Source of the DNA: Streptomyces cathayae
Lineage (GTDB): Bacteria; Actinomycetota; Actinomycetes; Streptomycetales; Streptomycetaceae
Assembly (NCBI RefSeq): GCF_029760955.1
Contig: NZ_CP121682.1
Coordinates: 7,334,501 to 7,398,500, forward strand
Direction: 5' to 3'
Length of the DNA: 64,000 bases
The notes beneath the pieces were generated by a model. It was not told the DNA's origin. It did not search any database and saw only the letters and a program-made list of their open reading frames with translations. Positions 2,321-38,453 of the stretch are shown piece after piece (positions within the stretch are counted from its first letter, which is position 1; each line of letters starts with the position of its first letter). Both the position numbers and the translations under genes were made by a program.

Positions 2321-2393
2321 AGCGGCTCCTGGGGGGGCGAGAAGGCGGGCTGGAAGAGGCGGGTTGGAAGAGGGCTGGGGGGGTCGGCGGGGG

Positions 2394-3992: not shown

Positions 3993-3995
3993 TGG

Positions 3996-5582: not shown

Positions 5583-5612
5583 GATGACCTCCTGTGGTAC
5601 TCCATCTCTTTT

Positions 5613-5633: not shown

Positions 5634-5682
5634 CATTGGGCAAGTGGCCCCCGAAGGACGAGACAGGGAAGGATGGGTGATC

Positions 5683-18509: not shown

Positions 18510-19616
18510 TCACCGCCGCCGTCGCCGCTTCGTGGGCGGACGGGGCGGACGGGGCGGGCGGCTCCCCTGGAATGTGGGCACGGGGTCGGCTGCCCAGGGG
18601 CCGGCGGCCGTCTCATCGGAGTCGAGCAGGTCCTCGCCGTAAAGATCGTGCAGCCAGTTGGACTGGTAGATGGTGTCGAGGTAGCGCTCGCCGAGATCCG
18701 GGGCGATGGCCACCGCGGTGAGTTCACGCGTGTCGTGGTCGTCCAGCCAGCGCATCGCGCCGCTGACGACCGTGCCGGTGGAGCCGCCGAAGAGGAACCC
18801 CCGTCTGGCCAGGCGATGGCACATACGGATGGTGTCCGTCTCCTCGACGCGTACCACCTCGTCCACGTAGGACTCGTCGAGCAGCGGCGGAGGCATGCTC
18901 ATGCCGAGCCCGGGAATCATGCGGCGGCCCGGCGCGCCACCGAAGGTCACCGAACCGACGCTGTCCACCGCGACGATCCGTACCGGCCGGTGCCACTGGC
19001 GGAAATAGCGTGCGCAGCCCATCAGAGTTCCGGTGGTGCCGGCGCCGACGAACAGCACGTCCAGGTGCGGGAATTGCTGGGCGATCTCCGGCGCCGTTTT
19101 GCGGTAGTGCGCCTTCCAGTTGCCCGGATTGGTGTACTGACTGAGCCACACATACCGGTCATCGGAATCGCACAGCGCACGGACGTAGTCGATCCGCGCG
19201 CTCAGAAAGCCGCCTTCGGCGTCCGAGCCGGCGATGATGTGCACCCGGCTGCCCAGTGCCTCCATCAGAAGCCTGGTCGACAGGTTGCAGCGTGAGTCCG
19301 TCACGCACAGGAACCGGTAGCCCTTGCTCGCCGCGATCATGCTCAGCGCCACGCCTAGGTTGCCGGACGAGGACTCGACCAGGATCGAATCCGGTGTGAG
19401 CTCTCCGTCCCGTTCGGCGGCTTCCACCATCTCGGTCGCGGCCTTCAGCTTGATCGAGCCGGCGAAGTTGAAACCCTCGCACTTCAGGAACAGGGGACGC
19501 CCGAAGAGAGGCTCGAGGCCGACGTAGAGCTGGGATTCGTTGAAGGCGTGGGGAGAGGATACGACAGGCACGACGGCCTCCTCCTCGTCTGCGGCAGGGC
19601 GCTCCCGGCCGGTCAT
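18510..19616 (-). CDS. sbnA: SbnA-like N-(2-amino-2-carboxyethyl)-L-glutamate synthase
   Basis: This 368-residue PLP enzyme of the cysteine-synthase fold has the PLP lysine Lys56 in FNFAGSIKLKAA, the substrate loop VESSSGNLGVALS and the PLP-phosphate glycine loop VGAGTTGTLMG. It matches SbnA-type enzymes, which join O-phospho-L-serine and L-glutamate to ACEGA, the first step to L-2,3-diaminopropionate. The last 30 residues are a Pro/Arg-rich tail (PPRPPRPPTKRRRRR) beyond the usual family end. The start ATG overlaps the SbnB-like stop (ATGA). It is last in the operon. Plain cysteine synthase is the alternative, but the SbnB partner settles it. Confidence 0.92.
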   Translation of the reverse strand: MTGRERPAADEEEAVVPVVSSPHAFNESQLYVGLEPLFGRPLFLKCEGFNFAGSIKLKAATEMVEAAERDGELTPDSILVESSSGNLGVALSMIAASKGYRFLCVTDSRCNLSTRLLMEALGSRVHIIAGSDAEGGFLSARIDYVRALCDSDDRYVWLSQYTNPGNWKAHYRKTAPEIAQQFPHLDVLFVGAGTTGTLMGCARYFRQWHRPVRIVAVDSVGSVTFGGAPGRRMIPGLGMSMPPPLLDESYVDEVVRVEETDTIRMCHRLARRGFLFGGSTGTVVSGAMRWLDDHDTRELTAVAIAPDLGERYLDTIYQSNWLHDLYGEDLLDSDETAAGPWAADPVPTFQGSRPPRPPRPPTKRRRRR

Positions 19617-20683
19617 CCGTGACGGCGCAGTTCGTGGAAGAAGTCATCGACGACGTGCAGTTCTCCCGAGCGGACCAGTTCGTCGTAGACGTACTTGCCG
19701 ACCGCGAGGTCGAGCACCCCGAGGCCGAAGGGTGAGAACACCACCGGCCGGCCCGTGGGCACTGTCACCCGCCCGGCCATCACGTCGTCCAACGTGCCCT
19801 GCAGGAAGTCCCGGTTGCCCGTGAGCTGCTCGGCCAGATGCGGCGAGGTGCCGGCCTTCAGGCAGTGCTCGACGTCATCCACGACATTGGTCGAGGCGAG
19901 AACGATCTCCGGCGCGAGGTCGCGCAGCGACACGTGCAGAACCACGGGATTGTGCGAGAACCACGTGAGGTCGCTGACGTGCGGCTCACCGGCGACGGTG
20001 GCGAAGACCACCAGGTCGCTGCCGCGGATCAGCTCCTCGGCACTGTGGTGCACCGTGATCCGGCCTGTGGTGCCCGACTGCCCGAGGTAGTGGCGGAACC
20101 CTGCCGTGCTGTCGGCGGACAGGTCGTACAGGCCTGTCTCGTCGAACGACCAGCCGTTGCCGACCAGGAACGTGTGGATGTAGCGGGCGATCAGGCCCGT
20201 CCCGAAGAACCCGACGCGCGTGGGCCGTGGCCGGTCCCGGCTGAGGCGATCCGCGGCCAGCACCGCGGACGCGGCCGTCCGGGTGGCGCTGATGATGGAA
20301 CTCTCCAGGCAGGCGAACGGGTAGCCGGTCTCCTGGTCGTTGAGGATCAGCACGGCGGACGCCCGGGGGATGCCGGCCTGCACGTTCTCCGGGAAACTGG
20401 AGATCCACTTCACGCCGTCCACCTGTACGTGCCCGCCGATCGAGGCCGGCAGCGCGATGATCCGGGAGGTCGGACGGTCGGGAAACCGCAGGAAGTACGA
20501 CGGCGGGTTCACCGAGTCACCGGCACCGTGCAGCCGGTAGGTGACCTCGGCCAACTCGACGAGCTGCTTCTCGCGCCCCTCCAGCACCTGCTGGACCTGG
20601 GCACCGGAGATCACCGCGAAGGGCCGCACGCTGTGCGGTCCGCCTGTCGCGGACGCCGTCACGGAGGCGGGGACGCCGGTCAT
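19613..20683 (-). CDS. sbnB: SbnB-like N-(2-amino-2-carboxyethyl)-L-glutamate dehydrogenase (Dap-forming)
   Basis: This protein of about 356 residues belongs to the ornithine cyclodeaminase/mu-crystallin family. The Rossmann motif is GFFGTGLIARYIH; VKWISSFPENVQAGIPRASA and NDQETGYPFACLE are the SbnB-type substrate loops. SbnB oxidatively splits ACEGA with NAD to give L-2,3-diaminopropionate and 2-oxoglutarate. With the SbnA partner this provides Dap for the NRPS genes just upstream. ATG 20683 overlaps the oxygenase stop (ATGA) and its own stop overlaps the sbnA start, so three genes are translationally coupled. A longer upstream start to 20830 would run into the oxygenase gene. Confidence 0.93.
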   Translation of the reverse strand: MTGVPASVTASATGGPHSVRPFAVISGAQVQQVLEGREKQLVELAEVTYRLHGAGDSVNPPSYFLRFPDRPTSRIIALPASIGGHVQVDGVKWISSFPENVQAGIPRASAVLILNDQETGYPFACLESSIISATRTAASAVLAADRLSRDRPRPTRVGFFGTGLIARYIHTFLVGNGWSFDETGLYDLSADSTAGFRHYLGQSGTTGRITVHHSAEELIRGSDLVVFATVAGEPHVSDLTWFSHNPVVLHVSLRDLAPEIVLASTNVVDDVEHCLKAGTSPHLAEQLTGNRDFLQGTLDDVMAGRVTVPTGRPVVFSPFGLGVLDLAVGKYVYDELVRSGELHVVDDFFHELRRHG

Positions 20684-21687
20684 CGGGCGGTCACCTCGAA
20701 GGCCGGCGAACAGTCGGACATCCGTACCGGGTCGGCCATCGCGACGAGCACGTCGCGCGGTCCCTCGAAGGGCTCCCGGCTGTGCGCGGTGCGCAGGTTG
20801 TCGACGATCATCAGATCGCCGGCCCGCCACGGCTCGCGTGCGGTGTGGATCTCGTAGACCTTGTTGAGCAGTTGCACCACGTCCTCACCGATCGGGTCGC
20901 CGCTTCCGAAACGGGTGTTGAACGGCAGCCCGTCGGCTCCGTAGACCTCGACGAGGTACTCGCGGACCTCGGGGGCCAAGGTCCACTCGTTGAGGAACGC
21001 GACCTGGTTGAACCAGCAGCGCCGCCCGGTGACCGGATGGCGCATCACGGCGCTGCGGCGCTGCCTGGTGCGCAGGGTCCCGTCGGGCTGCCATGCGAAC
21101 TCGATGGCGTTGGCGCGGCAGTACCTCTCGACGGCATCCCGCTCGTCGGTGCCGAACGCCTCGACGAGGGAGCACCCGATCTCGTCGTTGTAGCTGCGGG
21201 TGAGCAGCCAGCCCTCCCGCTCGAACCGCTCGGTCAACGCGGTGGGCAGTTCCTCGAGCACACTCGCCGCGTCGGCCACTCCGGTCGCCCCGCCCCGGTC
21301 GGGCGCGGTGAGGCAGGCGAACAGCATCAGACCGGGGAACTCGAGCGTGTAACTCTGTTCGTGGTGCATGCACATCGGCTGGTTCGGCGGCCACTGCGCC
21401 GAGGAGTACACGCCGTCGGCATAGGTCCGCCGAGGTGCGAAAGCCTCCCGCTCGGCCATCAGACCGGTGCTCAGCCGCTCGAAGACGGCACCGGCCCCGG
21501 CCACATCACGCAGCCCGAGGCCGCGGATCAGGAGGCAGCCGTGCTCGGCGACGACGGCGCGCAGCGCCTCCCGGTGCTCGGCTGCCCAGCGTGGCGCGTC
21601 GCCGGTGATCTCGGTGAGCAGTACCGGAGGCCGTCCGGGCTGGAGTTCGACCTCGTCGAGCAGCGACGCCGGGGAGATGAAGGACAT
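20680..21687 (-). CDS. TauD/TfdA-type Fe(II)/2-oxoglutarate oxygenase (SyrP-like)
   Basis: This 335-residue non-haem iron oxygenase has an HxE metal motif in MCMHHEQSYTLEFPG (His108, Glu110) and the distal His302 in DNLRTAHSREPFEG; Arg311 or Arg322 could hold 2-oxoglutarate. The motif and length match SyrP-like and clavaminate-synthase-like hydroxylases, which hydroxylate amino acids, sometimes while bound to a carrier protein. In this operon the likely substrate is Dap or the NRPS-bound residue, so a beta-hydroxylated or otherwise oxidised monomer is possible. Another option is hydroxylation of the finished product. The gene follows the NRPS by 36 bp and overlaps sbnB by 4. Confidence 0.88.
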   Translation of the reverse strand: MSFISPASLLDEVELQPGRPPVLLTEITGDAPRWAAEHREALRAVVAEHGCLLIRGLGLRDVAGAGAVFERLSTGLMAEREAFAPRRTYADGVYSSAQWPPNQPMCMHHEQSYTLEFPGLMLFACLTAPDRGGATGVADAASVLEELPTALTERFEREGWLLTRSYNDEIGCSLVEAFGTDERDAVERYCRANAIEFAWQPDGTLRTRQRRSAVMRHPVTGRRCWFNQVAFLNEWTLAPEVREYLVEVYGADGLPFNTRFGSGDPIGEDVVQLLNKVYEIHTAREPWRAGDLMIVDNLRTAHSREPFEGPRDVLVAMADPVRMSDCSPAFEVTAR

Positions 21688-21723
21688 CCTGATTTCCTTT
21701 CAGTGTGCAGCTGGGTGTGCCGC

Positions 21724-24700
21724 TCAGGAGGCAGGCAGTAGTTCGACGGTGCGCAGCACGGCCTGCGCTGCCTCGGACGGACGGCTGCGCAGGAAGTAGT
21801 GGCCGCCCGTGGCGAGTTCCTGCAGATCGACGTGGACCGCGAGGAGCTCCCAGTCACGGTGGCGTCGCGGGTGATCAGCCGTGATCGGGTCGTCGGTGGC
21901 GACGACCACGGTGACCGGCACGGACAACTTCACCGCCGGGGGAGCGTCGAGGAGATCTGCGAAACAGCGGTGCGCGGACACGCAGTCGTGCCGGTAGGCC
22001 GCACCGATGTGCTCGGCGCGCCGCGCGTCCAGCTCATGGAGCTCGGCGTAGCCGCTGTCCGCACTCAGCCTCGCGGCGATCTCGGCGTCGCTCAGCCCGG
22101 TCAGCTCGGTGACCGCGGCGCGCCGGTCGGCGGCATCGCCGAGCAACTGCGCGCCGATGAAGACCCGCCGGACTTCCACCCCGTGCGCGTCCAGCTGTCC
22201 GGCCGTCTGCACGGCGAAAGCCGCGCCCGACGAGTGCCCCCACAACAGGACTCCGCGCAGGCCACGTTCAGTGATCTCGGCGACGACCTGAGCCACCACA
22301 TCCGCCATCGACGCGAAAGGCTCGCTCGGGGCGGCCACGTCGTGACCGGGCAGCTCGACGGCGTAGACCGCGAGCCCGCTGCCCTGCAGGGCCCTGGCCA
22401 TCGGCTGGAAGTTCACCGCGTTGCCGCCGGCGTAGGGGAAACACACCAGGGCACCAGCCGGCGCACCGTCCGGTTCGTACAACGGCTGGAGCAGTCCGGA
22501 ACGCCGATCGGACCTGCCGTCGACCAGCGCGGCCAGATCGGCGAGGACCGGATGACGGGTCACGTCCTTGAGCGACACCGCGCGGTCCAGGCTGATCGCC
22601 AGCTTCACAGCCGACAGCGATGTGCCGCCCCGGTCGAAGAAGTGGGCCCGTCGGTCGATCTGAGCCTGCGGGATGCCGAGCACCTCCGCCCAAGCCGCCG
22701 CCAGCCGCCGCTCGGTCGGCGTACCCGGCATGGGGGAGTCTTCTTCACCGTCCTCGACGACGTCCGGTTCGGCCACGAGTGCTGCCAGTGCCCTCTTGTC
22801 GGTCTTGCCGTTGGCGGTCAGCGGCAGCCTTTCCCGCCAGTGGAAGGCCGACGGCACCATGTACTCCGGCAGCGACTCACCCAGCCGGCCCCGCAGGTCC
22901 TCGACGGGGAGCGGCGTCGGGCCGGAGTAGAAGGCCACAAGGCGCTTGCCCCGGCCGGGCGGCTCGGTGACCACCACCGCACCGTCGCGGACGCCGGGGA
23001 CCTGCAGCAGGGTGTTCTCGATCTCGCCGATCTCGATCCTGAAGCCACGGATCTTGACCTGGGTGTCGCGGCGTCCGAGGAACTCCAGCTTGCCCTCGGG
23101 CAGCCAGCGGCCGTGGTCGCCACTGCGGTAGAGCCGGGCTCCCTCGCGGTGCGGATCGGGCATGAAAGCCTGCTTGGTGCGGTCGGGGTCGTTGACGTAT
23201 CCACGACCCACGCAGACGCCGGAGAAGACGATCTCGCCGGGGGCGCCGAGCGGTACCGGTGACAGCTGTTCGTCGACGACGTAGACGTGCACATTGGCGA
23301 CGGGGGGACCGAGCGGGACCCGTTCGCGGTCCGGCACCCGGTCCAGGACCTCGTGGTTGGTGTCGTCGCAGGTCTCGGTCAAGCCGTAGGCGTTGACCAG
23401 CTTGATGCCGGGCTGGGCCGCGAACCAGCGCTGCGTGAGCTCCTTCTTCAACGCCTCACCGGTGACGGACACGCACCGCAGGCCGGGCAGCTCGCGCGGG
23501 TGCTGCTCCAGATAGGTCAGGACGACTTCGAGGTACGACGGCACGACCTGGAGCACGGTGACCCGACCGCGGTCGATCCTGTCGACGAACCGCTGGACGT
23601 CCAGGATCACCTCCTGCTCGACCAGCAGGGTCCGCCCACCCACCAGAAGGGCGGACAACAGTTGCCACAACGAGATGTCGAAGCACTGCGGGGCGGTCTG
23701 GGCGACCACCTGTCCCTCGTGGACATCGAGCTCCAGGTCCTCGATCTTGGCGTAGAGGTGGTTGAGCATCCCCGCGTGTTCGCACATCGCGCCCTTGGGC
23801 TCTCCGGTGGAGCCGGAGGTGAAGTAGATGTAGGCGAGTCGGTCCGGTGCGACGGCGATGCCCAGGTCGTCGTCGCGGCCACCCTCGTCGTACGCCGTAG
23901 CGATGAAGAGCTTCTGGACTCCCGGCAGCGAGTCCAGGGCCTGGTCGAGGGAGTCGGTGCTCGTGGGTTCGGTGAGCACGAGCCCGCACGCGGCACGGGA
24001 GAGCATGGCCGCGATGCGATCGGCCGGGAAACGCGGGTCGACGGGCAGGTACACGCCTCCGGCCTTGAAGACCGCGAGGACGGAGGCCATCCAGTCCAGG
24101 TTCCTCCCGGTCACCACCGCGACGACCCCCTCACGGCGCAGCCCCCGCGCCAGCAGGGCTCGTCCCAGCCGGTTGGCACGTGCGTTGAGCTCCTGATAGG
24201 TCCACTCCCGGTCGCCGTGCACGGCGGCGACGGCCTTCGGGTGCAGCCTCACCCGCTGTTCGAACAGCTCGTGCATCCGGGCGTCCGGCAGGGTACGGCG
24301 CGGCCCGGACAGCCCTTCGAGCTGGAACCGGAACTCCTCGTCGGAGAGCAGGCTCTGCCGCGCGTGCTCGGCATCCGGATCCGCGGCGATGAGCGCGAGC
24401 GCGGTGAGGTGGTAACCGGCGATCCTGGCGGCGTGGTCCGCGTCGAGTACGTCGGTCCGGTACCGCAGTCGCAGCGTGGGCCGGCCACTGTGCTCGGAGA
24501 ACGCCGTCCACAGCACGGTGCCTTCGGCGAGATCGCCGGCGACGTCCGTCGGGCGGGGACCGGGGACCGGATGCGGATCGAGGACGGTCTCGGCCGACGG
24601 TTCGGCGAGGTCCAGCTCGCGTCTGAGTCCGTCGACCGGAAAGTCCTTGTGCGACAGCAGTTCCGATACGACGCGATGGGTGTCGGCCAGGAGCGCCCGC

Positions 24701-25014
24701 CACGATGCCGGTGCGGTCGTCAGCCGGCAGGGCAACGGCCGGCCGCCCTCCTCCACGACGTGGCCGGTCATGACCTCGTGCTCGCCCGACAGTGCGGCGA
24801 GTACCTTGGCGTGCGCGGCCAGCATCACGGAGCCGAGAGGCATCGTGAGGTCCTCCGCCAACCGGCGCAAGGCGTTCATGACATCGTCCGGAATCGTGGC
24901 CTCGTGCTCGTCGACACCCGCCACCGGACGGAGCGTCCACCGAGGGATCGTGGTGGATCCGCCGGTGACGAGCACACCGCGCCAGAATTCCCGGTCCGCC
25001 CATCGCGTTGCCAT
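21724..25014 (-). CDS. Single-module NRPS: half-condensation, adenylation, PCP, thioesterase
   Basis: This 1096-residue enzyme starts with only the C-terminal half of a condensation-type domain (about 1-240; no HHxxxDG motif). The A domain (about 250-740) shows YFTSGSTGEPKGAM, CFDISLWQLLS, NAYGLTETCDDTNHE and YRSGDHGRWLPEG, with the A10 lysine in LTANGKTDKRAL. A PCP follows (FFDRGGTSLSAV), then a type-I-like TE (LLWGHSSGAAFAVQ; GHSSG). Aligned by eye to PheA, the specificity residues read D-I-W-Q-S-T-A-D-D-K; the paired Asp residues suit a basic side chain such as Dap, which is an inference. The ATG at 25014 follows GAGAGGGA. The gene supplies the only A domain in the operon and so must also be considered the loader for the A-less Pls-like protein. 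Confidence 0.92.
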   Translation of the reverse strand: MATRWADREFWRGVLVTGGSTTIPRWTLRPVAGVDEHEATIPDDVMNALRRLAEDLTMPLGSVMLAAHAKVLAALSGEHEVMTGHVVEEGGRPLPCRLTTAPASWRALLADTHRVVSELLSHKDFPVDGLRRELDLAEPSAETVLDPHPVPGPRPTDVAGDLAEGTVLWTAFSEHSGRPTLRLRYRTDVLDADHAARIAGYHLTALALIAADPDAEHARQSLLSDEEFRFQLEGLSGPRRTLPDARMHELFEQRVRLHPKAVAAVHGDREWTYQELNARANRLGRALLARGLRREGVVAVVTGRNLDWMASVLAVFKAGGVYLPVDPRFPADRIAAMLSRAACGLVLTEPTSTDSLDQALDSLPGVQKLFIATAYDEGGRDDDLGIAVAPDRLAYIYFTSGSTGEPKGAMCEHAGMLNHLYAKIEDLELDVHEGQVVAQTAPQCFDISLWQLLSALLVGGRTLLVEQEVILDVQRFVDRIDRGRVTVLQVVPSYLEVVLTYLEQHPRELPGLRCVSVTGEALKKELTQRWFAAQPGIKLVNAYGLTETCDDTNHEVLDRVPDRERVPLGPPVANVHVYVVDEQLSPVPLGAPGEIVFSGVCVGRGYVNDPDRTKQAFMPDPHREGARLYRSGDHGRWLPEGKLEFLGRRDTQVKIRGFRIEIGEIENTLLQVPGVRDGAVVVTEPPGRGKRLVAFYSGPTPLPVEDLRGRLGESLPEYMVPSAFHWRERLPLTANGKTDKRALAALVAEPDVVEDGEEDSPMPGTPTERRLAAAWAEVLGIPQAQIDRRAHFFDRGGTSLSAVKLAISLDRAVSLKDVTRHPVLADLAALVDGRSDRRSGLLQPLYEPDGAPAGALVCFPYAGGNAVNFQPMARALQGSGLAVYAVELPGHDVAAPSEPFASMADVVAQVVAEITERGLRGVLLWGHSSGAAFAVQTAGQLDAHGVEVRRVFIGAQLLGDAADRRAAVTELTGLSDAEIAARLSADSGYAELHELDARRAEHIGAAYRHDCVSAHRCFADLLDAPPAVKLSVPVTVVVATDDPITADHPRRHRDWELLAVHVDLQELATGGHYFLRSRPSEAAQAVLRTVELLPAS

Positions 25015-25155
25015 CGATCAGTCCCTCTCCACTCGCCGTGGCCACCCTGTCCGTCGCCGCCGACCAGGCCGGCTCCTCCGCCTTCGCCGCTGTCGGCAGA
25101 CCGCCGGGCCTGACTGCCCGGCCGGTCGAGCCGACTCGACCAAGAGGGTCCTGTG

Positions 25156-27738
25156 CTACTCCTGCCGCGTCAGCGCCGGCGGCCGACCGGGGGCGTCGCT
25201 CGTCTCCGTGGCCGGGTTGCCACCCCACCGCGCGTACGGCGGGACTTCCTCGCCCTTCATGAGGAAGGAGTCGGGCGCGAGTACCGAGCCGTCACCCATC
25301 GTCACTCCGTAGTGGACGTGGGAGCCGACACCGAGGGTGCATCCGTCCCCTATCGCGCTGCGGTCGGACTTGAAGGTGCCGTCCTCCTGCGAGTGGCATT
25401 GGATCTTGCTCCCCGCATTGAGGGTGCAGTCGTCCCCGATGGTGGTGAGCATCCGCTCCGTCAGATAGCAGCCGTCGTCGAAGACCCTGCTGCCGAGACG
25501 GACCCCCAGGAGCCGCCAGATCACGTTCTTGAAGGGGGTGCCGTTGAAGATGTTGAGGTACTCGTCAGGGACCTTCCACAGACGCTCGTGCCACCAGAAG
25601 TACGGGTCGTAGATGGAGCACAACTGCGGCCGCAGCCCGCGGAAAGCCACGATGGCGCGCTCCACCAGTACGAAATAGAGGGGAGTGAGTACCAGACTGA
25701 CCACCAGGAACGCCGCGATCGCCACATGCCCGAAGGAGTCGTACACTTCGACATTCGCGAGGGCGAGCACGGTGATGACGAAGAGGAAAAACCACCGTAC
25801 GAGCAGGAAGAGGAGCATCGAGCGGATATTGAAGCGGTTCTTGGCAGCGAGGTTGCGATACAACTCGGTTCCGGTCCGCATGTGGTCGAACCGCAGGTCG
25901 CGCTCCACCGAACGGGGAATCTCGAAGCACGGCGAGCCGAGCAGACCCACCCCCTCACGCACCTCGCCGTCGAGGGGAACCATCACCTTCGTCGCGAGAA
26001 GGCAGTTGTCGCCCGTCTTCGCCCCGGACGGATACGCGATGTTGTTCCCGAGGAAGTTGTGCCGTCCGATCGACGTCCGGGACACCCGGAAAGACGTACT
26101 CGAGAAGTCGGCATTGACGATCGACAGACCGTCAGCAATCATCGTGCCGCTGCCGACGGAGGACAGATACGGGGTCTCGTGCTGTACTTCCGTGCCGAAG
26201 TTGGACCCCGTCTGCTCCACCTGCGACAGGTTGTATCCGAGGCCGCGCAGGTAGTGGACGATGTAGGAGCTGTCACCGAAGAGCCATGTGAAGAACTTCA
26301 CGTTGGTGATGCGCGCGATCGCCCGGTGCATCGAGTAGTGAAAGCCGTACAGCGGATATATCTTGTCCGGCTCGATCAGCAGATTCAGCAGGCGCGGCAC
26401 GGTGAACAGGGCGACGATGCCCACAACGGCGAAACCGAGGAACAGGACGCAGGACGCGATCAGCGCGTCGGCATAGAGCTCCGCCGACACGAGCCCCGTC
26501 GTGCCCGGGGCCAGTCGGTCGTTCAGTGCCGGGACTTCCGTCAACAGCATGTACAGGCCCCCGACGGCCAACGGCACGGAGAGGAAGAACAGCTGACCCA
26601 CTGTGGCGAGGCCGAAGCCGGCCCGGCGCAAAGTGCCGCACCTGGCGGGCGGGATCCGCACGTAGTCGAACTCTGTGCGCTGCGCCGGAGAACCGTGCCA
26701 CCGCTGGTCGTCGGGGACCGCCTGACCGCTGTGCAGTGATGACGTATGACCGAGTTGCGCCCCGTCGCCCATCGACGTGGCGATGTCGAGCACGGTCTTC
26801 TCACCGATGAACACATTCCGGCCAAGGGTGACCGGGCCCGTCTGGATACGGCCGGCGTGCGCCCGGTAGCAAGAGAAGAACGACTCCTTGCGGATCACCG
26901 TGCCGGCGCCGATCGTGAGCAGGTCGGTGCAGACCGGAACGTTGCGCGAGAGGATCGTGACACCCGTCCCGATGCGTGCGCCGAGTGCCCTCAGGTAGAG
27001 CACATACAGGGGATTGCCGACGAAGAGGACCATCGGGTTGGCGTGGAGCAGTACCTTGACGGTCCAGAAGCGCAGGTAAGTCAGACCCCAGACCGGGAAC
27101 TCGCGTTCTTTCCATCGGCCGATGAGGATCCATTTGGCCGCGATCGGGAAAGCGCACATGCCGATGAAGCCGGCACCGCCGAAGACGACCGATCGCAGGT
27201 AGATGTCCGTCACGCTCGAGCCGGTGGATATCCATGCATAACCATGTGCGGCAAGGAGTGCGGCGAGGAAGGAATATCCCAGGAAAAGCAGAAACTGCAG
27301 CACTCCGCAAAGGGCGTACTGCAGCGTGCCGACCGAAGTCGTGGGTCCAGAGGCCGACGGGTCCGGCGAGCCGGCGGGAGCGGGTGCGGCAGCGATGCCG
27401 GCTCCGGCGTCGGCACTGGTGTCGGTGAGTGCCGACGCCAGACCGCGGATCGTCCGGTGAAGGTAGACGTCCTTTATCGAAACCGACGGTAGATCCGCCC
27501 TTTTCCTGACGCGTGCACAGAACTGTGCCATCACCAGTGAATTGGCGCCCAGGTCGTCGAAGAAGTTGGCGTCGACCGAAACCCGCTCCACGCCCACGAC
27601 ACCGGCGAGAACCTCGGCGAGATCCCTTTCCGCGGCTGTCGACGGACTGTTTTCTTTCGACGGGCCGTGCGTCCTGTGCTTGGCGGATCCAGATCTATCC
27701 GGCACGCCCGTCAGGGACTCGGCAGACTTCTCCAGCAT
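25156..27738 (-). CDS. Pls/PosA-type membrane NRPS body lacking an adenylation domain
   Basis: This 860-residue protein has an N-terminal PCP (about 35-110; FFDDLGANSLVMAQF, Ser67 as the phosphopantetheine site). Six membrane segments then alternate with three cytoplasmic domains rich in hexapeptide-like turns (IGTGVTILSRN, IGEKTVLDIA, IGRHNFLGNN, IGDGCTLGVG). This is the exact body plan of epsilon-polylysine synthetase (A-T-TM-C1-TM-C2-TM-C3, the TIGR02353 terminal domain) without the A domain. In Pls the three domains string amino acids together through side-chain amines. The start ATG 27738 has AAGGAG six bases upstream; a GTG 21 bases earlier is less likely. It is the first gene of the operon. 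The missing A domain must act in trans, probably from the NRPS gene downstream. Confidence 0.93.
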   Translation of the reverse strand: MLEKSAESLTGVPDRSGSAKHRTHGPSKENSPSTAAERDLAEVLAGVVGVERVSVDANFFDDLGANSLVMAQFCARVRKRADLPSVSIKDVYLHRTIRGLASALTDTSADAGAGIAAAPAPAGSPDPSASGPTTSVGTLQYALCGVLQFLLFLGYSFLAALLAAHGYAWISTGSSVTDIYLRSVVFGGAGFIGMCAFPIAAKWILIGRWKEREFPVWGLTYLRFWTVKVLLHANPMVLFVGNPLYVLYLRALGARIGTGVTILSRNVPVCTDLLTIGAGTVIRKESFFSCYRAHAGRIQTGPVTLGRNVFIGEKTVLDIATSMGDGAQLGHTSSLHSGQAVPDDQRWHGSPAQRTEFDYVRIPPARCGTLRRAGFGLATVGQLFFLSVPLAVGGLYMLLTEVPALNDRLAPGTTGLVSAELYADALIASCVLFLGFAVVGIVALFTVPRLLNLLIEPDKIYPLYGFHYSMHRAIARITNVKFFTWLFGDSSYIVHYLRGLGYNLSQVEQTGSNFGTEVQHETPYLSSVGSGTMIADGLSIVNADFSSTSFRVSRTSIGRHNFLGNNIAYPSGAKTGDNCLLATKVMVPLDGEVREGVGLLGSPCFEIPRSVERDLRFDHMRTGTELYRNLAAKNRFNIRSMLLFLLVRWFFLFVITVLALANVEVYDSFGHVAIAAFLVVSLVLTPLYFVLVERAIVAFRGLRPQLCSIYDPYFWWHERLWKVPDEYLNIFNGTPFKNVIWRLLGVRLGSRVFDDGCYLTERMLTTIGDDCTLNAGSKIQCHSQEDGTFKSDRSAIGDGCTLGVGSHVHYGVTMGDGSVLAPDSFLMKGEEVPPYARWGGNPATETSDAPGRPPALTRQE

Positions 27739-30974: not shown

Positions 30975-31293
30975 CTCCGTTCCTTCCCGCTTCCCTCACC
31001 CTTTCCGACTCCCCCCGGGGGGAGTCACGCGGACCGTCGTTCTTCGAACCGCGCGGTGTCCCGGGTGTCCCGCTGCCCCCGGTGCGCCGGAGGCTCACCG
31101 CGGAGCCCTGAACGGCTTGTTCTTCGCACACCCGCGTCCGGGGTTGAGGGGTTACCGGCAGACAGGGACGGGCCGGCGGTGGGGACGCCACCGGCCACGC
31201 CAGGCACCTGGTCGGCGGAACACCCGCACCCCGTTGTCAGAGGCCTGCCCTACAGTTCCCGTCACTTGATCAGTGTGGATGCGGGAGGCACGC
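30975..31293. other. Intergenic stretch before the MoxR/vWA operon
   Basis: About 320 bp with no credible gene. It should contain the promoter of the five-gene operon that starts at 31294, but no clear -10/-35 pair is visible. The only structured element, CCCCCCGGGGGG near 31011-31022, is a short GC palindrome of uncertain meaning. Confidence 0.45.
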
Positions 31294-32148
31294 ATGGGGT
31301 GGGTGTCGGCCGGCGACTACGAAGTCGCCCTCGACGACGGCAAGGTGGTGTGCCGCAACGCGACGGGACGACGGCTGAAGTCCGTACCGTCCAAGATCGC
31401 CGACGATCCGGCGGTGGTGGGGCTGCGCCAGCTCGTCGAATGGCTGGAACGGCACGAACGACAGTGCCTCGCCGACGTCGAGCGGTGGATGGTGCGCTCC
31501 CTGCCGGTGCCGTTCGCGGTCCTGGCGCGGGTCTGGCCGGACCCGGCCTGGCAGGCCGCCCTGCGCGACCTGGTGGTCACGGGCACGGACGGCGTGGTGG
31601 CCGGGTTCCTGCGGGACGCCGACCCCGAGCGGGGCCTCGGCCTCGTCGACCTCGATGGCGACACCGTCCGGATCACTCCCGGTCTGCTCTGCCTGCCGCA
31701 CCCGGTGCTGCTCGACGAGCTCGAGGACCTGCGCGAGTTCGCCGTCGAGATCGGCATCGAACAGCGCGCCCAGCAGCTCTTCCGCGAAGTGTGGCACCGG
31801 CCCGCGGCCCTCGACGCCGAAGCCGGCTCCGTCGAGGACCACGCGGGCGGCGCCTTCAAGGAACTGAGGTTCCTGCACGGCCGCGCGTCCCAGCTGGGAT
31901 ACCGCGTGCGCGGCGGCCACGCCGTGTGCTCCGTACTCGAGGACGGCCGCGGTGTCGAGGCCCGGGTATGGGTCGGCGACTACGACGGCTACTCCGAGAC
32001 GGAGACCGGCCCGCTCGTCTTCACCGACCCGGCCGGCCGGGCCCTGAAACTCGGTCAGGTCGGTCCGGTGGCCTGGTCGGAGGGCATGCGTATGGCAGCC
32101 GCACTGTACGCCGGACGCGACATCGAGGACGAGGAGCGTGCGGCATGA
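31294..32148 (+). CDS. DUF4132-domain protein, small form
   Basis: This 284-residue protein has the DUF4132 core: EIGIEQRAQQLFREVWHRP followed by FKELRFLHGRASQLGYRVRG, which corresponds to the FKQ-(L/V)FR-xVY and (R/H)xxxAxxLxxRGW pattern of that family. In Enterobacteria the large DUF4132 protein (YehI) neighbours the YehL MoxR ATPase, as here. The ATG at 31294 has GGGAGG seven bases upstream and is preferred over an ATG at 31279 and a GTG at 31273. It overlaps the next gene by ATGA. The function of DUF4132 is unknown. At 284 residues it is far shorter than the 1200-residue YehI type, so it carries little more than the conserved domain. Confidence 0.8.
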   Translation: MGWVSAGDYEVALDDGKVVCRNATGRRLKSVPSKIADDPAVVGLRQLVEWLERHERQCLADVERWMVRSLPVPFAVLARVWPDPAWQAALRDLVVTGTDGVVAGFLRDADPERGLGLVDLDGDTVRITPGLLCLPHPVLLDELEDLREFAVEIGIEQRAQQLFREVWHRPAALDAEAGSVEDHAGGAFKELRFLHGRASQLGYRVRGGHAVCSVLEDGRGVEARVWVGDYDGYSETETGPLVFTDPAGRALKLGQVGPVAWSEGMRMAAALYAGRDIEDEERAA

Positions 32149-35100
32149 CGACCCACGAACACGACGGATTCACCTTCGACGAGACCACCTCGGCCGCGCT
32201 GCTCGACGCCGGCGCCGTACTGCCCCCGGCCGCCACGGACCGCGAGGACGCCGACGTCCTCACCGCCCGCACGTACACCCACACCGCGCTGGACGGGCGC
32301 AAGGTCGTACGACTGGTACCGGGCACGCTCGGTGAAGCCGAGGATCTCGCCCTGGACTTCCTCGGTCTCGCCCGGGAGCCGGAAACCCCCGAGGTCGGCC
32401 AGGTGCGCCGGGAAACCCTCGGCTTCCCCGCCTGGGCGCTCGTCAACGACCCGGCGAACGGACACCACGCCCTGGCACTGGTCAGGGACGTCGAGCGGCT
32501 CGCCCGGCAGGCCAAGTCCCGCCCCGGCACCGCCAAAGACGGCTTCGAGGCGCTCGGCGGGCAGCTCGGCCGGGCCGTGCCGCACTTCCTGCCCACCTTC
32601 TACGAGCAGGCCGCCCGCGTCTTCCTGCAGCACGAGAACACCACCTACGCGGCGGCCTTCTTCGGCAAGGCCCGCGAGGCGGAGCGGGTGCACGCGCTGA
32701 CCGTGGACGAGGAGCGGCAGCGGTCCGTTTTCCTGGAGTTCGCCTTCGCCGGGGCATTGACCGTCAAGGCGCTCAAGGAGCATGTGAAGGCGCTCGCGGC
32801 CCGGCTCGCCCCGGCCGAGGCGTGGGCGCAGTTCCGGCAGCTGACCGTGGAGCGCTGCGCCGCCGGCATGCCGCCGTACGCGTCGCTGCCCCAGGACGCG
32901 CGCACCCTGATCAAGGCGGCGGGGCTGGACCGGGTCACCGAGGAATGCGCCCTGGTCGCGGACCTGCTCGCGTCGCCCGCGGCCGTGCGGGCGCCCGCCT
33001 CCTTCTGGAACACCTACCGGCCGACGCTCGTCGTCCTCGCCGAGCGGCAACCCGACGTACGGGCCCGGCTGCTGGAGATCATGCCGGCCGGACTGGGCCG
33101 CTCCACGAAGGACGACGAGTTCTGGCTGGCGCTGCTCGCGGAGACCGGCGCCGACCGGCTGCTGGCGGGCGAGAGCGCGGACGGGACCGACGCGGCGGAC
33201 TGGCTCAGTCGCTGGGCACTGCACCGCAAGCACGGCGGCACGGTCAGCGACCGCTCACCGGCCACCCTCGCGCTCGTGGAGCGCATGGCCCCGTCCCTGC
33301 GCGCACACGGCCGCGCCGTGGACCTCTTCACGGGCCGCTGGCACGCCGGCGCCGATCTCGACCTGCTGGACCTGTGCGTGGCCGAGAACGTACCGCTGAC
33401 CCGGCCCGGGTCCGGCACGGACGTCCACCTCTCCCTCGGCCGGTGGATGGAGGACACCGGAGCCGGGCGACGTGACCTGATGGCCGTCGCGGCGGACCCG
33501 CGCGGCCGGCGCATGCTGTACGACGCCGTCGGCAACCTGCAGCGTCAGCGGACCGGCACCGGGCTGCTGGAGCAGATCGCCGGCCATCCCGTCCTCGCCG
33601 ACGTGCTCCGCGAGTGGCTGGAGGACGCCGCCGACGAACTGGACGGCGCCACCGGTCCGGCGGGCGCCCGCGCCGCGCTCGAACGGCTGCGTCCCTTCCG
33701 CACGGTCGCCGCCCGGATCAGCCGGCAGGCCGTCGCCAAGGCCGCCGCGTTCGACATCGCACCGCTGCTCGGCAACACCCTGCGCGCCGGCATCCCGGAC
33801 GAACTGGGCTGGCCGGCCCTCGAGGAGGCGGTGCGCCGACTCGAGGCCGGGACCCGGCGCGGTCATGACGACACCCTCGCTGTCCAAGAGTGCTGGCCGG
33901 CCCTGATCCTCTCCCGCCGGCACAAGGCGATCGTGGTGGGCCCCCAGGACATCCTGCTGGAACACGACCTGCGGCTGCCGGCCGAACCGGACCGCTGGCA
34001 GCGGCCCTCGTTCCGCTACACGGACGGCGAACTGCTGGTGATGTGGCGGCAAGGCGCCAAGAGCCACGGCTACTGGTCGGCCCGCCCGACCGAGGTGTTC
34101 CCGCTCGGCGGCGAGCAGCTCCCGTCCTGGTACAGCAGCGGCGACGCGGGCGAGACCTCGATCCCGATCCCGGACGGCGGCCGCGCCACCGGCGGGCGCG
34201 CCCTGCACGCCGGCGACACGGTCCTGCCGCCCGGCCGCCCCGTCATCGGGGACGGCACCTCCTACTGGCGCCAGGGACGGCAGGGCGTGCGGCAGGTGTG
34301 GCTCGAGTACGACCCGGCCACCGGCACCCACGGTCGTGCCTCGCTGCCCGCGTTCCTGCGCTCCGGCATCCAGGACGGCGCCACCCTGCTCCAGCAGCAC
34401 TGCACCGTGCTGCCCCTGCAGCCCGGTCTGGAGCACAGCCCGTTCGGCACCGACGGCACGGTCCTCGGCCGCTGGGTGCGCACCGAGGGCGAGGGCGACG
34501 AGACCCGCACCACCGTCGGCACACCGGACGGCCGAACCGCCACCCTGTCGGCGGACAACCGGATACCGGGCATACCGCTCGGCGTACTGCGGCTGCCCGG
34601 CGGCGTCGAGCCCCTCGTCGTCGCCCAGCACCGCCAGGTCACGCTGTACACCACGGACGACACCACCGGTGTGCGGGAACTGGGCCGGCTGACACCGCTG
34701 CAGCGCGGCGGCGAGTTCGCGGCCGGTACACCACTCGTTCCGCCGGTCGACTTCTGGCACGCGCTGCGCCCGCGCGACGAGAGCGCTTCGGCGATCCTGC
34801 GGACCCTGAGCGACGAGAAGGCGGAGGAGCTGCTGCGCGCCGGGGCCCGTGTCCTGGCGGAGCGGCAGGCCGAGGTGGCGGCGGCCGAGCGGGCGAACGC
34901 GGCCTCCGGGAACGGGGGCGGGGGCGGCCAGGCGGCCACCACCGGCAACCCCGCCGTCCCGAGCGCCCAGGAGGTCCTGCGCAAGGCCGTCTCCCGCGCC
35001 CTGCCCGACCTCACCGAGCCCCGGGTGCTCACCGGCGTCACCTCCCTGGTGCACGCGGTGCTGCGACTCGCCGAGTCCGTCGCCGCGTTCGTCGAGCCTC

Positions 35101-37199
35101 CGGCGGAGCGGCCCAGGGCCCGGTCCCAGTGGGTTCTGGGCATGTTCGCCGACTACCGTCCCGAGGACGGCGACGACCAGACGCTGCGCGAGGCGACCGC
35201 CGGCCTCGCCGGGCAGTACGGCTGGTGGGGTGGCGGACAGCGGTGGAGCGTGCTGCGCCAGATCCGCGCCGTCAACCACGTCCTGACCGGGAAGCCCGCC
35301 GACGGCAAGGCCCTGCCCGGCAACGCCCGCCTCACCGGCCCCGACGACGGATGGCGCAGCGACGAGCGCACCGTCCCCGCCGGAGGCCCCGCCTGGCCTT
35401 CCCTGCTCGACGCGCTGCGCCCGCTCGCCTACCGCGCCGCCGCCCCCACCCTGACAGAGGCACACCGCAGAGCACTGCTGCTGCTCTTCGAGGCGATCAC
35501 GGAGGGCCCGCTGGCCGCACCCGGAGCCGCGCTGCGCGAGGTCGTGCTGAGCGAGCCGCGCGGCAAGCAGGACCGCGCCGGTCAGGTGCTGCGCCGCGAC
35601 GGCCGCACCGTCGTCGTCCTCGGCTGTCAGAGCGTCGACCACCGCCACGACCGCGTGAACTGGCTGGCCCTGGACCACGATCCGGCGGGCACGTTCGGCG
35701 CCGTGGCCCACTTCACCTCGGCCCGGGAGGCGGCACACCCGCCGGTGTTCCCGGCCGACACGCTGGCGGCGGTGACGGGGCTGATCCGGGACAAGGGCCC
35801 CGCACCCTGGCAGCCGGAGGCACCCGCCGCGCTGGCCGCCGCCACGCGGGGCGGCCTGGGGCCGGTGCAGGCCGCCCTGCTGCTCGCGGGGAAGCCGACG
35901 CAGCTCACCGACGAGGTGAGCGCCGCGACAGCCCTGAAGCCACGGCAGAAGCAGCTCGGCGACGCGCTGCTGAGCTCGCTGGAGCCCGGCGACCGGGCGG
36001 CCCTGGTCGGCGCCCTGCTGCCGGCGAACCCCGGTGACCTGTGGACGACCGGACCGGACACGGGCGCGGCGGGCCGGGTGTGGGCCGAGCGCCTCGACGG
36101 CGTCGTCCGTCTCCCCGAGGACCTCGTCGGCGACATCGCCCTGCCGGGAGTGCCGACCGGATCCGTCGAGGAGATGCTCAACCCGCGCCGCACCCCCTGG
36201 CTCAGCCGCACCACGGTGCAGCGGCTCGACAAGGACGGCAACCTCGTACCGGAGGACCCCGCGGCGCTGCCCGGACGGTACGACCTGGCACGCGCCGTGT
36301 CCTCCCTGGCCGGGCTCGCCTACTCGCTGCCGTACGGGCACCCGCTGCGCGCCACGCTGCCGGAAGGACTGGCCGCGCTGCGCCGCCGCCTCGCGGACCC
36401 CGGGCTGCTGCTCGACCTCGGCCTGGAATGGACCGAGAAGGGCTCGTCGACCGCCGTCGAACTGCGCAAGGCGTACGGACTGCCCGCCACCGGCGGCGCC
36501 GGCGCAGACGGCCTGACACCCGTCGGCGAGGCGCTGGTACTGCGTCCCTGGCACGGCGACCAGGAAACCGTCCTGGTCCGCTCCGCCGCCCTCGTCCGCG
36601 CGGACGACCCCGTGTTCGGTCTCGTCGAGGGACTCGTCGGAACCGCGCGCGGCGACGGAATGCGGGCACTGCGGGCGGTCCTGGACGACGAACTCGCCCG
36701 CGCCGTCGCGGCCGGAACGGACCCGGCGGACCCCACCGGGTACGCCCATGCCCCGTCCGTCAGCGTGCCCGAACTGGTCACGGAGGTCGCCGAGGCCAAC
36801 GGCCTGGGCGAGGACGCGGCGGGGCTCTACCTCCAGCTGCTCGCCCTGCCCGACCCGACGGACCGCAACTGCGTCCGCCGGACCGGCTGGAAGCCCGCCC
36901 GCATGAAGAAGGCACGCGCCGAACTGGCGGCGGCCACCGGGCTGGTCGTCGAGGCGAAGCGGTCCCGGGCCGGCCGCACCCTCTTCCTGCCCTGCGGCTG
37001 GCTGGACCTGAAGTCCCCCGCCCTGCCGGTGGAGATCTGGAAGCAGGACCTCTACCCGGTGCGCGGCAACGCCCCCGCGGTGCCGCTGCTGCCGGTACCC
37101 GAACTGTTCCGGCGCGCATGGGACCGCGTCCGCGCCAACGACGCGCCCGCCTACGAGGAACTCACCACCCGCGCCACCCGCAAGGGCCGCCGCCGATGA
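32145..37199 (+). CDS. Very large (1684-residue) protein of a MoxR/vWA operon, function unknown
   Basis: I recognise no catalytic domain. The N-terminal 650 residues look alpha-helical with Leu/Ala-rich repeats (about 100-450 resembling ARM/TPR-like packing). The middle (about 650-900) is richer in beta-strands, with WRQGAKSHGYWSARP and TVGTPDGRTATLSADNRIPG. A Gly-rich hinge (NAASGNGGGGGQAATTG, about residue 920) separates a helical C-terminal half. The last 100 residues are conserved-looking (NCVRRTGWKPARMKKARAEL; FLPCGWLDLKSPALPVEIWK). The end is basic (RATRKGRRR). It overlaps the DUF4132 gene by 4 bases and precedes the MoxR gene by 40 bp. It is probably the client or scaffold of the MoxR-vWA machine; this is inference from position only. 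Confidence 0.85.
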   Translation: MTTHEHDGFTFDETTSAALLDAGAVLPPAATDREDADVLTARTYTHTALDGRKVVRLVPGTLGEAEDLALDFLGLAREPETPEVGQVRRETLGFPAWALVNDPANGHHALALVRDVERLARQAKSRPGTAKDGFEALGGQLGRAVPHFLPTFYEQAARVFLQHENTTYAAAFFGKAREAERVHALTVDEERQRSVFLEFAFAGALTVKALKEHVKALAARLAPAEAWAQFRQLTVERCAAGMPPYASLPQDARTLIKAAGLDRVTEECALVADLLASPAAVRAPASFWNTYRPTLVVLAERQPDVRARLLEIMPAGLGRSTKDDEFWLALLAETGADRLLAGESADGTDAADWLSRWALHRKHGGTVSDRSPATLALVERMAPSLRAHGRAVDLFTGRWHAGADLDLLDLCVAENVPLTRPGSGTDVHLSLGRWMEDTGAGRRDLMAVAADPRGRRMLYDAVGNLQRQRTGTGLLEQIAGHPVLADVLREWLEDAADELDGATGPAGARAALERLRPFRTVAARISRQAVAKAAAFDIAPLLGNTLRAGIPDELGWPALEEAVRRLEAGTRRGHDDTLAVQECWPALILSRRHKAIVVGPQDILLEHDLRLPAEPDRWQRPSFRYTDGELLVMWRQGAKSHGYWSARPTEVFPLGGEQLPSWYSSGDAGETSIPIPDGGRATGGRALHAGDTVLPPGRPVIGDGTSYWRQGRQGVRQVWLEYDPATGTHGRASLPAFLRSGIQDGATLLQQHCTVLPLQPGLEHSPFGTDGTVLGRWVRTEGEGDETRTTVGTPDGRTATLSADNRIPGIPLGVLRLPGGVEPLVVAQHRQVTLYTTDDTTGVRELGRLTPLQRGGEFAAGTPLVPPVDFWHALRPRDESASAILRTLSDEKAEELLRAGARVLAERQAEVAAAERANAASGNGGGGGQAATTGNPAVPSAQEVLRKAVSRALPDLTEPRVLTGVTSLVHAVLRLAESVAAFVEPPAERPRARSQWVLGMFADYRPEDGDDQTLREATAGLAGQYGWWGGGQRWSVLRQIRAVNHVLTGKPADGKALPGNARLTGPDDGWRSDERTVPAGGPAWPSLLDALRPLAYRAAAPTLTEAHRRALLLLFEAITEGPLAAPGAALREVVLSEPRGKQDRAGQVLRRDGRTVVVLGCQSVDHRHDRVNWLALDHDPAGTFGAVAHFTSAREAAHPPVFPADTLAAVTGLIRDKGPAPWQPEAPAALAAATRGGLGPVQAALLLAGKPTQLTDEVSAATALKPRQKQLGDALLSSLEPGDRAALVGALLPANPGDLWTTGPDTGAAGRVWAERLDGVVRLPEDLVGDIALPGVPTGSVEEMLNPRRTPWLSRTTVQRLDKDGNLVPEDPAALPGRYDLARAVSSLAGLAYSLPYGHPLRATLPEGLAALRRRLADPGLLLDLGLEWTEKGSSTAVELRKAYGLPATGGAGADGLTPVGEALVLRPWHGDQETVLVRSAALVRADDPVFGLVEGLVGTARGDGMRALRAVLDDELARAVAAGTDPADPTGYAHAPSVSVPELVTEVAEANGLGEDAAGLYLQLLALPDPTDRNCVRRTGWKPARMKKARAELAAATGLVVEAKRSRAGRTLFLPCGWLDLKSPALPVEIWKQDLYPVRGNAPAVPLLPVPELFRRAWDRVRANDAPAYEELTTRATRKGRRR

Positions 37200-37239
37200 C
37201 CACGAGCCTTGCGGGGCCCGCAGAAAGCAGGGTCCACCC

Positions 37240-38448: not shown

Positions 38449-38453
38449 CCGCC

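Follow-up and report, generated by a model that had tools for sequence, protein, structure and literature searches.

A group of five neighbouring minus-strand genes in Streptomyces cathayae is best explained, and we think probably correctly, as encoding a two-carrier isopeptide synthetase for L-2,3-diaminopropionate (Dap) whose adenylation (A) domain resides on a separate protein. The genes lie in a window of 64,000 nucleotides (the whole stretch of DNA analysed), have a coding-like codon composition, and encode a Pls-type polymerase body without an A domain, a non-ribosomal peptide synthetase (NRPS), a TauD-type oxygenase and homologues of SbnB and SbnA (Table 1). From the genes, domains, conserved active sites, co-inheritance and fusions – all read from sequence – we infer the following scheme. 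SbnA and SbnB would supply Dap, and the NRPS A domain would activate it and load it onto two PCPs, one within the NRPS itself and one on the A-less Pls protein. TauD would oxidise Dap on the NRPS PCP, by hydroxylation or desaturation, while the Pls body, with its three acyltransferase-like domains between membrane helices, would link Dap through side-chain amide bonds. The oxidised Dap could enter as a residue or, as a free acceptor, become the C-terminus, with the TE, where one is present, releasing it. A free acceptor is part of the Pls reaction model. β-Hydroxylation of free-amine Dap would give an unstable carbinolamine, which we counted against our scheme.

Table 1. Coordinates of the five genes and their domains in the window
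Feature	Coordinates	Strand	Basis or remark
A-less Pls body (PCP and three left-handed beta-helix (LbH) acyltransferase-like domains between long helices)	25156..27738	-	profile matches, domain search
Pls PCP (residues 46-111 of P0001; PF00550)	27427..27624	-	PPant Ser in 55/55 extracted relatives
First LbH domain of Pls body (about residues 260-361)	26677..26982	-	
Second LbH domain of Pls body (about residues 510-616)	25912..26232	-	
Third LbH domain of Pls body (about residues 750-853)	25201..25512	-	hexapeptide repeats found by Pfam
NRPS, half-C – A – PCP – TE	21724..25014	-	domain search
C-lobe of condensation domain, N-lobe absent	24310..24999	-	PF00668 and 8jbr alignment
NRPS A domain, ten-residue code DIWQSTADDK	22804..24264	-	
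NRPS PCP	22522..22707	-	PPant Ser in 50/50 extracted relatives
TE domain of NRPS (dispensable in relatives)	21859..22449	-	
TauD-type Fe(II)/2-oxoglutarate oxygenase	20680..21687	-	HxE...H and Arg in 49/49 extracted relatives
SbnB homologue (Dap supply)	19613..20683	-	TIGR03944, 411 vs cut-off 327 bits
SbnA homologue (Dap supply)	18510..19616	-	TIGR03945, 389.5 vs cut-off 350 bits

Domain and profile matches bear out the gene content of the original prediction – an A-less Pls body, a half-C/A/PCP/TE NRPS, an HxE oxygenase, SbnB and SbnA, all on the minus strand – together with its ATGA overlaps, which join TauD to SbnB and SbnB to SbnA; the gap between NRPS and TauD is 36 bp. The adjacent SbnA and SbnB genes both score above curated cut-offs. 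The Pls body, publicly named ‘Pls/PosA family’, scores 863 bits with TIGR02353 (NRPS_term_dom), for which the cut-off is 423. It is 867 residues long from the preferred ATG at 27738, though the reading frame is open from a GTG at 27759, and it shows the family pattern of a PCP with its phosphopantetheine serine preceding a membrane body. The condensing domains of this body resemble LbH acetyltransferases, and its long helices are taken as membrane-spanning by homology to Pls. Domain and profile searches detected no AMP-binding domain anywhere in the 867 residues. An intact Pls elsewhere in the genome had been named as a result that would undermine the prediction; a profile search of the rest of the genome returned no second TIGR02353 match above the cut-off. 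No docking motif looked for at the Pls N-terminus proved to be general.

In the NRPS, only the second half of a condensation domain is recognisable: residues 6–93 match positions 193–282 of PF00668, and McyA (8jbr) aligns from its residue 208. The catalytic His motif of condensation domains sits in the N-lobe, and this lobe cannot lie upstream of the NRPS, as the Pls gene stops just 141 bp before the NRPS gene begins. The oxygenase contains an HHE motif; in PF02668 oxygenases HxE...H forms the facial triad and Arg binds 2-oxoglutarate. The ten-residue code of the A domain was read with GrsA numbering.

This code begins with DIW and so departs from the A domains of cationic homopolymer synthetases, which conserve Asp and Glu at positions 1 and 3, respectively (PMC10522769); most Pls relatives with an A domain in cis read DFE or DAE, and a few DFW. 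In the A-domain tree, the trans A domain groups with NRPS A domains of loci L004, L005 and L006 on a starred branch (support 99), and 13 Pls A domains stand together on one side with support of 82 (not starred). On this placement in a separate NRPS lineage, we rejected fission of a poly-Dap synthetase gene, and the earlier picture of a Pls whose own A domain had been split off has to be abandoned.

That the trans A domain would use Dap, as originally proposed, is supported by the SbnA/SbnB genes that adjoin this A type in almost all complete loci and by the invariance of its code, which is identical in 50/50 Pls-linked loci and in 7/7 cassettes without Pls. The clusters of its tree neighbours also contain such enzymes: SbnA/SbnB in L005 and an SbnA-like enzyme in L004 and L006. 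It is very unlikely that the domain activates another residue, such as Ser or Dab, with Dap merely as a partner. A relative of TauD in L105 (56%) does adjoin an NRPS with two A domains, coded DVWHVSYVDK, which we take to be Ser-like, and DVRHFAL--K. Positions 1, 3, 4 and 8–10 of our code moreover match DVWQMIGDDK, listed for β-hydroxylated Dab (PMC12283262). However, the exact code is accompanied by SbnA/SbnB in complete loci both with and without Pls, and the 25 window ORFs that were scanned include none recognised as a Dab aminotransferase.

Natural fusions address whether this A type can serve the Pls carrier. Among 46 proteins shorter than 1,700 residues that join it to a Pls body, an NRPS-type PCP is present in five and the Pls-type carrier stands alone in 37, with its serine present (18 arranged A-PCP-body and 19 PCP-body-A). 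One of the latter 19 (P0306) ends within the A domain, which leaves 36 complete single-carrier fusions; there the A domain must charge the Pls carrier, as the chains hold no other carrier type. By sequence, then, the fusions imply that this A type is able to serve the Pls PCP, and the proposed charging of that carrier by the NRPS A domain gains support. Twelve longer proteins run PCP-body-halfC-A-PCP-(TE)-TauD. A further search for fusions within genomes, together with their gene neighbours, yielded none in the 3 genomes of the G162 class or the 66 of the G476 class. L112 (G476) was rejected as a second split system: its body is only 28% identical, and its A domain and body lie in two frames of an incomplete genome, likely through a frame break.

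The same fusions weigh on an alternative that we regard as unlikely, in which the task of NRPS, TauD, SbnB and SbnA ends with an oxidised Dap on the NRPS carrier, which the TE or a transfer step hands on; the Pls body would then take free or transferred units, its PCP being charged otherwise. The four genes do form a portable cassette that is also used without Pls: seven fetched regions carry NRPS-TauD-SbnB-SbnA complete while a Pls body is absent from the surrounding 20 kb, and in four of the genomes concerned a search at E 1e-30 gave no Pls match at all. Serving Pls is thus not the sole purpose of the A domain. Four halfC-A-PCP-TE-TauD chains without Pls fit the same idea, although they are known as proteins only and a Pls gene may adjoin. 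Against it stand the 36 complete fusions with the Pls-type carrier alone and the invariance of the Pls carrier serine; both carrier serines and the TauD metal ligands are in fact invariant among the extracted relatives. We prefer the two-carrier synthetase.

SyrP is an Fe(II)/2-oxoglutarate oxygenase that acts on a T-bound residue. Like the oxygenase here, SyrP and the TauD domains of siderophore NRPSs work beside an A domain; they act on Asp, whereas here the neighbouring A domain is linked to Dap. For the siderophore domains the Asp is T-bound (PMC8949500), and this precedent, together with the position of TauD after PCP or PCP-TE in the fusions, lends suggestive support to action on a carrier-bound residue, as had been predicted by analogy with SyrP. 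In the TauD tree of 36 rows, the database proteins P0302, P0304 and P0310 bear a Pls-free label from which we draw nothing, as they are known as proteins only.

It is distinctly unlikely that the operon instead yields unmodified poly- or oligo-Dap, with TauD acting elsewhere, for instance on a shunt product that the TE sets free. The single-carrier fusions do suggest a minimal Dap polymerase without a second PCP. P0359, in which A runs directly into SbnB with neither PCP nor TauD between them, would point the same way, but a frame shift seems to affect its A domain towards the end, and we rejected it as a genuine A–SbnB fusion. TauD, on the other hand, is present in 49 of 54 same-genus regions, retains its metal ligands in all 49 extracted sequences and is fused into the machine in the 12 long proteins. 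The TE is a different matter: it occurs in only 26 of 50 relatives, and the special role first given to it, in making a short, capped chain, is unneeded.

The closest known systems share parts of this design. PDAPs of Streptomyces albulus PD-1 (PMC4668381) and the Pls/PosA family (PMC10522769) likewise place a PCP ahead of a membrane body that contains three soluble domains in tandem, and they lack a classical C domain; PDAPs, too, relies on Dap from SbnA/SbnB-type enzymes. Here, by contrast, the A domain is on another protein, of another lineage and with DIWQSTADDK in place of D-x-E, and a second carrier, TauD and, in part of the family, a TE are added; the Dap genes share the operon, whereas those of S. 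albulus do not lie near pdaps (PMC4668381). For charging in trans, capreomycin biosynthesis provides a parallel: CmnA-A1 loads Dap onto its own carrier and onto the carrier of the A-less CmnI (PMC12400406). As here, a Dap-linked A domain on one protein is paired with an A-less carrier protein – transfer in trans being, in our case, a proposal by analogy – but an ordinary C domain is present in CmnI, and that pathway yields a cyclic peptide. Among open PubMed Central papers, a collection with most subscription journals outside it, our searches listed no title or abstract opening that reports a Pls without an A domain served by one in trans.

The dapdiamide cluster (L104) shares with our locus, in mirrored order, an SbnA-like enzyme, SbnB, TauD and an A-PCP protein (DdaA–DdaD), and it has a separate hydrolase gene; identities are 33% for DdaC, 45% for SbnB and 44% for SbnA. 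The Dap derivative on which DdaC works is tethered to DdaD (PMC12451424). A similar pathway, in which TauD would oxidise Dap that is N-acylated and bound to the NRPS carrier, with release of a small peptide antibiotic, nonetheless has only the slimmest chance of applying here. The dapdiamide cluster is without a Pls body, which is the conserved partner in our loci, and has extra ddaF, ddaG and asnB-like genes; among the 25 window ORFs scanned there were none of ddaF, ddaG or ddaH type, and no gene of ATP-grasp, fumarate-ligase or asparagine-synthase type. The DdaD A domain, moreover, is only 32% identical, carries the code DSEDIGVINK and falls outside the trans-A clade.

The system is common in Streptomyces: A-less Pls bodies occur in 48 of 150 same-genus genomes. 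All five genes are found in 46 of the 54 same-genus regions fetched (42 in identical order) and in 76 of 80 loci of the named-genome scan, where the remaining four run off their contigs; the genes thus form a conserved unit, and this conservation excludes chance. Pairwise distances across 48 loci co-vary (Pls–A 0.80, A–TauD 0.83 and Pls–TauD 0.70, each reached by 0 of 2000 permutations), as is also expected from shared descent. Departures from the common arrangement, which weigh against our scheme, include Pls bodies alone in their regions (L058, L067 and L069, with the operon elsewhere in their genomes) or on plasmids without a nearby cassette (L098 and L106), a Pls and TauD beside a different A-like gene (L066) and, in Pseudonocardia autotrophica, a TauD adjoining a Pls with its own, divergent A domain.

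Tentatively, then, a third of Streptomyces may encode a cryptic polyamino acid of mixed composition, namely a Dap isopeptide made with one carrier bearing Dap and the other TauD-oxidised Dap; the Dap polymer would then contain hydroxylated or dehydro residues, or else end in a special cap at its C-terminus. If so, the two-carrier design could also explain a comb-like Dap-on-Dap polymer reported from a poly-lysine-producing Streptomyces (Takehara 2021, as cited in PMC10522769 and PMC9606270, with no synthetase genes named there). In the polymer papers covered, each synthetase includes an A domain in its own chain and polymerises a single monomer; here a separate cassette that activates and modifies the monomer, and that could be exchanged, would serve a membrane polymerase. 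The natural fusions document ways in which the parts combine, and the operon suggests cassette swapping as a route to altered monomers in such polymers. Many Streptomyces carry the system under a name that recalls poly-lysine, and some antiSMASH ‘NAPAA’ calls may stem from it; its predicted cryptic cationic product becomes directly testable.

TetR and MMPL genes were considered as part of the system and rejected, none exceeding the threshold in the 54 same-genus regions or the 80 named loci. Weak MMPL relatives (28–31%) occur in L004 and L200.

The five genes form a single run on the minus strand, in the order Pls body, NRPS, TauD-type oxygenase, SbnB and SbnA, with only 141 bp between the Pls stop and the NRPS start and with ATGA overlaps joining the last three genes, as originally described. 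Also borne out were the A-less nature of the Pls body – family profiles match one PCP and no A domain – and the half-condensation (half-C) start of the NRPS, where residues 6–93 correspond to Pfam positions 193–282, the C-terminal lobe of a condensation domain; the alignment to McyA begins at McyA residue 208, and the N-lobe is missing. A second, intact Pls working with these genes would have told against such an arrangement, but a genome-wide profile search found TIGR02353 above cut-off only once, with two weak matches below it, while SbnB and the window-type TauD are each single in the genome at E 1e-40.

The five genes of the operon
Feature	Position in window	Strand	Basis
Pls body	25156-27738	-	TIGR02353 over curated cut-off
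NRPS half-C-A-PCP-TE	21724-25014	-	family matches
TauD-type oxygenase	20680-21687	-	
SbnB	19613-20683	-	TIGR03944 above curated cut-off
SbnA	18510-19616	-	TIGR03945 above curated cut-off

Described Pls systems carry the A domain in the same chain, according to the parts of PMC4668381 and PMC10522769 consulted, and a search of the open-access literature found no A-less Pls served by an A domain in trans. Many relatives are nevertheless already public, annotated 'Pls/PosA family', and the chemistry of the window system is still a prediction.

With the window Pls protein as query against 150 same-genus genomes (the window's included; best six candidates per genome scored), 59 gave a Pls match, and these fall into two populations: window-type bodies (56–100% identity; 48 genomes, the copy of genome G105 being fused) versus canonical Pls at 28–30% identity, the only type in nine. 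In genomes G060 and G096 the only match is to a related type (52–54% identity) whose chain starts with an A domain of its own. Outside the window there are 57 window-type places, of which 54 were taken, the other three being fragments of contigs in G139 and G142; the 54 comprise 53 A-less bodies and one fused protein (region L070). The predicted co-occurrence with SbnA, SbnB and the NRPS is found in 46 of the 54 regions, which hold all five genes, 42 in the window order. An A domain occurs in 50 regions and TauD in 49; where an A domain is present, half-C accompanies it in 49/50 cases and a TE in 26/50, one of the 24 NRPSs lacking a TE (L037) being truncated by the contig end. Among the eight incomplete regions, L034, L037 and L050 run into a contig end; L065 has Pls, NRPS and SbnA on site and TauD and SbnB elsewhere in the genome (L200); L066 combines Pls and TauD with a different A-like gene; and in L058, L067 and L069 the body stands alone, each of these genomes having an operon at another site (L027, L034 and L032, respectively). 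In L052, a single open frame of 1,190 aa spans NRPS and TauD.

Across the window and loci L017–L072 (57 loci), the phosphopantetheine Ser is conserved in all extractable sequences of the Pls PCP (55/55) and the NRPS PCP (50/50), as are the TauD metal ligands and 2-oxoglutarate Arg (49/49 extracted); of the 25 TE domains long enough for extraction, 23 retain the TE Ser. The ten-residue A code, its positions located by motif under GrsA numbering, is invariably DIWQSTADDK at the 50 Pls-linked loci.

The system extends beyond the genus. When named genomes were scanned with the NRPS as query – a design in which Pls bodies without the NRPS cannot be counted – the best 80 of 258 loci were taken. Of these, 76 have the complete set of five genes (74 in the window order) and four run off the contig; apart from Streptomyces, the hosts include Actinacidiphila, Pseudonocardia and MAGs labelled Nakamurella, Propionibacteriaceae and Pseudonocardiales. 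In a phylum survey, a Pls match turned up in 19/396 genomes and was almost always of the canonical type; window-type bodies outside the genus were in G157 and G162, each on a short contig.

It might have appeared that the A domain had simply split off from Pls, as the original prediction implied. However, when 41 A domains selected from 90 are placed on a tree, the trans-acting domains group with NRPS A domains of regions L004, L005 and L006 (support 99*) and away from the 13 Pls A domains (unstarred support of 82). Replacement of the Pls A domain, rather than splitting, is therefore the most likely reading of these sequences. L005 holds SbnA and SbnB. In L004 and L006 an SbnA-like enzyme (30 and 32%) is accompanied by a kinase and by a lyase that in L004 is argH-like; this set may constitute another route to Dap (L-2,3-diaminopropionate). 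On a second tree, built from 46 Pls bodies selected out of 81, a 100* branch separates the canonical type from the A-less bodies and their relatives with an in-chain A domain (L071, L072, L101, L103 and L107), which group together with L100 in poorly resolved order. The A codes of these five relatives start DF, whereas canonical L073–L076 have Ala at position 2, like Lys-activating members; Phe at this position is reported for PDAP/PDAB synthetases (PMC10522769). P0221 and P0223, relatives of the DF type, are fused to a Dab aminotransferase, and L103 adjoins ectB.

Natural fusions bear on which carrier the A domain serves. L070 is one chain of 2,323 aa, PCP-Pls body-halfC-A-PCP-TauD. With it as query, the best 120 of thousands of scored database proteins – without gene context and including metagenome entries – yielded 117 new, domain-mapped proteins: 44 canonical, 11 PCP-body-halfC-A-PCP-TE-TauD (2,267–2,374 aa), P0246 in the L070 form without TE, and four halfC-A-PCP-TE-TauD whose gene neighbours are not visible in these entries. 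In the chains that include TauD, it comes directly after the second PCP or after the TE of that PCP. Among the matches listed, 46 fusions below 1,700 aa join the trans-acting A type to a Pls body. A Pls-type carrier stands alone in 37 of them, its Ser always present (18 A-PCP-body; 19 PCP-body-A, including P0306, cut off inside A); four have two carriers (two Pls-type in P0285, one of each kind in P0258, P0295 and P0300); and five start within the body and so miss the stretch in which a Pls carrier would be seen, two of them (P0297 and P0307) having the NRPS carrier. DIWQSTADDK recurs exactly in 58/65 A domains over 55% identical to the window's among the matches listed. In the single-carrier fusions the A domain can serve only the Pls carrier, which supports loading of that carrier by this A type.

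The proposal that the NRPS A domain serves Pls gains support from these fusions, but there are also cassettes that lack Pls. The 150 genomes include sites where TauD and SbnB occur away from any Pls, and eight of these sites were taken; seven (L194, L195, L196, L197, L198, L199 and L201) hold NRPS, TauD, SbnB and SbnA with no Pls body within 20 kb, and the remaining one, L200, supplies the genes absent from L065. All seven NRPSs have the same A code and two keep the TE. Four of the genomes (G069, G080, G107 and G138) gave no Pls match in the 150-genome search; G020, G036 and G064 have both Pls system and Pls-free cassette. The 20 neighbours scanned, around L194–L197 only, include a methyltransferase-domain NRPS, a tryptophan halogenase, a P450, an AMP-binding-KR-PCP protein and a phosphoglycerate dehydrogenase, with a second TauD in L194 and L196. 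These cassettes are the main evidence against the NRPS being simply the missing A domain of Pls; perhaps they supply oxidised Dap as a unit from which other peptides are built.

A confident AlphaFold2 model of the Pls protein (92 sequences; pLDDT 83, pTM 0.86) shows a PCP followed by three beta-helix domains separated by long helices, taken by homology as membrane-spanning. HHalign recognises domains 1 and 3 as repeats (99%), domain 2 being a weaker one (88 and 67%); the PCP takes up most of the VIA-align rows. Foldseek ranks hexapeptide acetyltransferases highest, among them maltose O-acetyltransferase (E 1.1e-5), and by their fold the condensing domains thus look like acyltransferases that would use a carrier-bound aminoacyl donor. 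SbnA and SbnB would make Dap, and the NRPS A domain would activate it and load it onto the Pls carrier, as the single-carrier fusions suggest, and onto its own carrier, by normal NRPS logic; trans loading of Dap onto an A-less carrier has been demonstrated for CmnA-A1 and CmnI (PMC12400406). TauD would modify Dap on the second carrier, given its position in fusions and precedents acting on Asp (PMC8949500) and, for DdaC, on a Dap derivative bound to DdaD (PMC12451424). The Pls body would then polymerise. Conjecturally, systems that have a TE may use it to set oxidised Dap free as an acceptor, and those that lack one would hand the unit on directly.

Tandem PCPs (two or more) occur on Pls bodies of L069, L099, L100, L102, L106 and L108 and in P0251, P0285, P0308 and P0317, several without an A domain in the chain; a P. 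autotrophica Pls chain combines a divergent A domain (27%) with three PCPs. Two Streptomyces plasmids carry lone A-less Pls genes (L098, 8016–10556, amid the metal-transport genes CDF and CopC; L106, 8010–10745), with no A, TauD or Sbn matches nearby. On Pseudonocardia plasmids L099 and L100, Pls adjoins TauD; one strain was sampled from the ant Apterostigma.

Elsewhere in the window, a large ORF without family match, a MoxR-like AAA ATPase and a DUF5682 and VWA_CoxE protein (31056–42392, plus strand) look like a MoxR-vWA-beta-propeller type system. At 1645–5804 (minus strand), a B12-binding protein, a carboxyltransferase and a methylmalonyl-CoA mutase-like large subunit adjoin an MftR-type TetR regulator. 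At 49938–58313, two ricin-type lectin-domain proteins, one with GSDH/PKD/CBM6 and the other with ThuA/3-keto-disaccharide hydrolase domains, adjoin a GH92 glycosidase.
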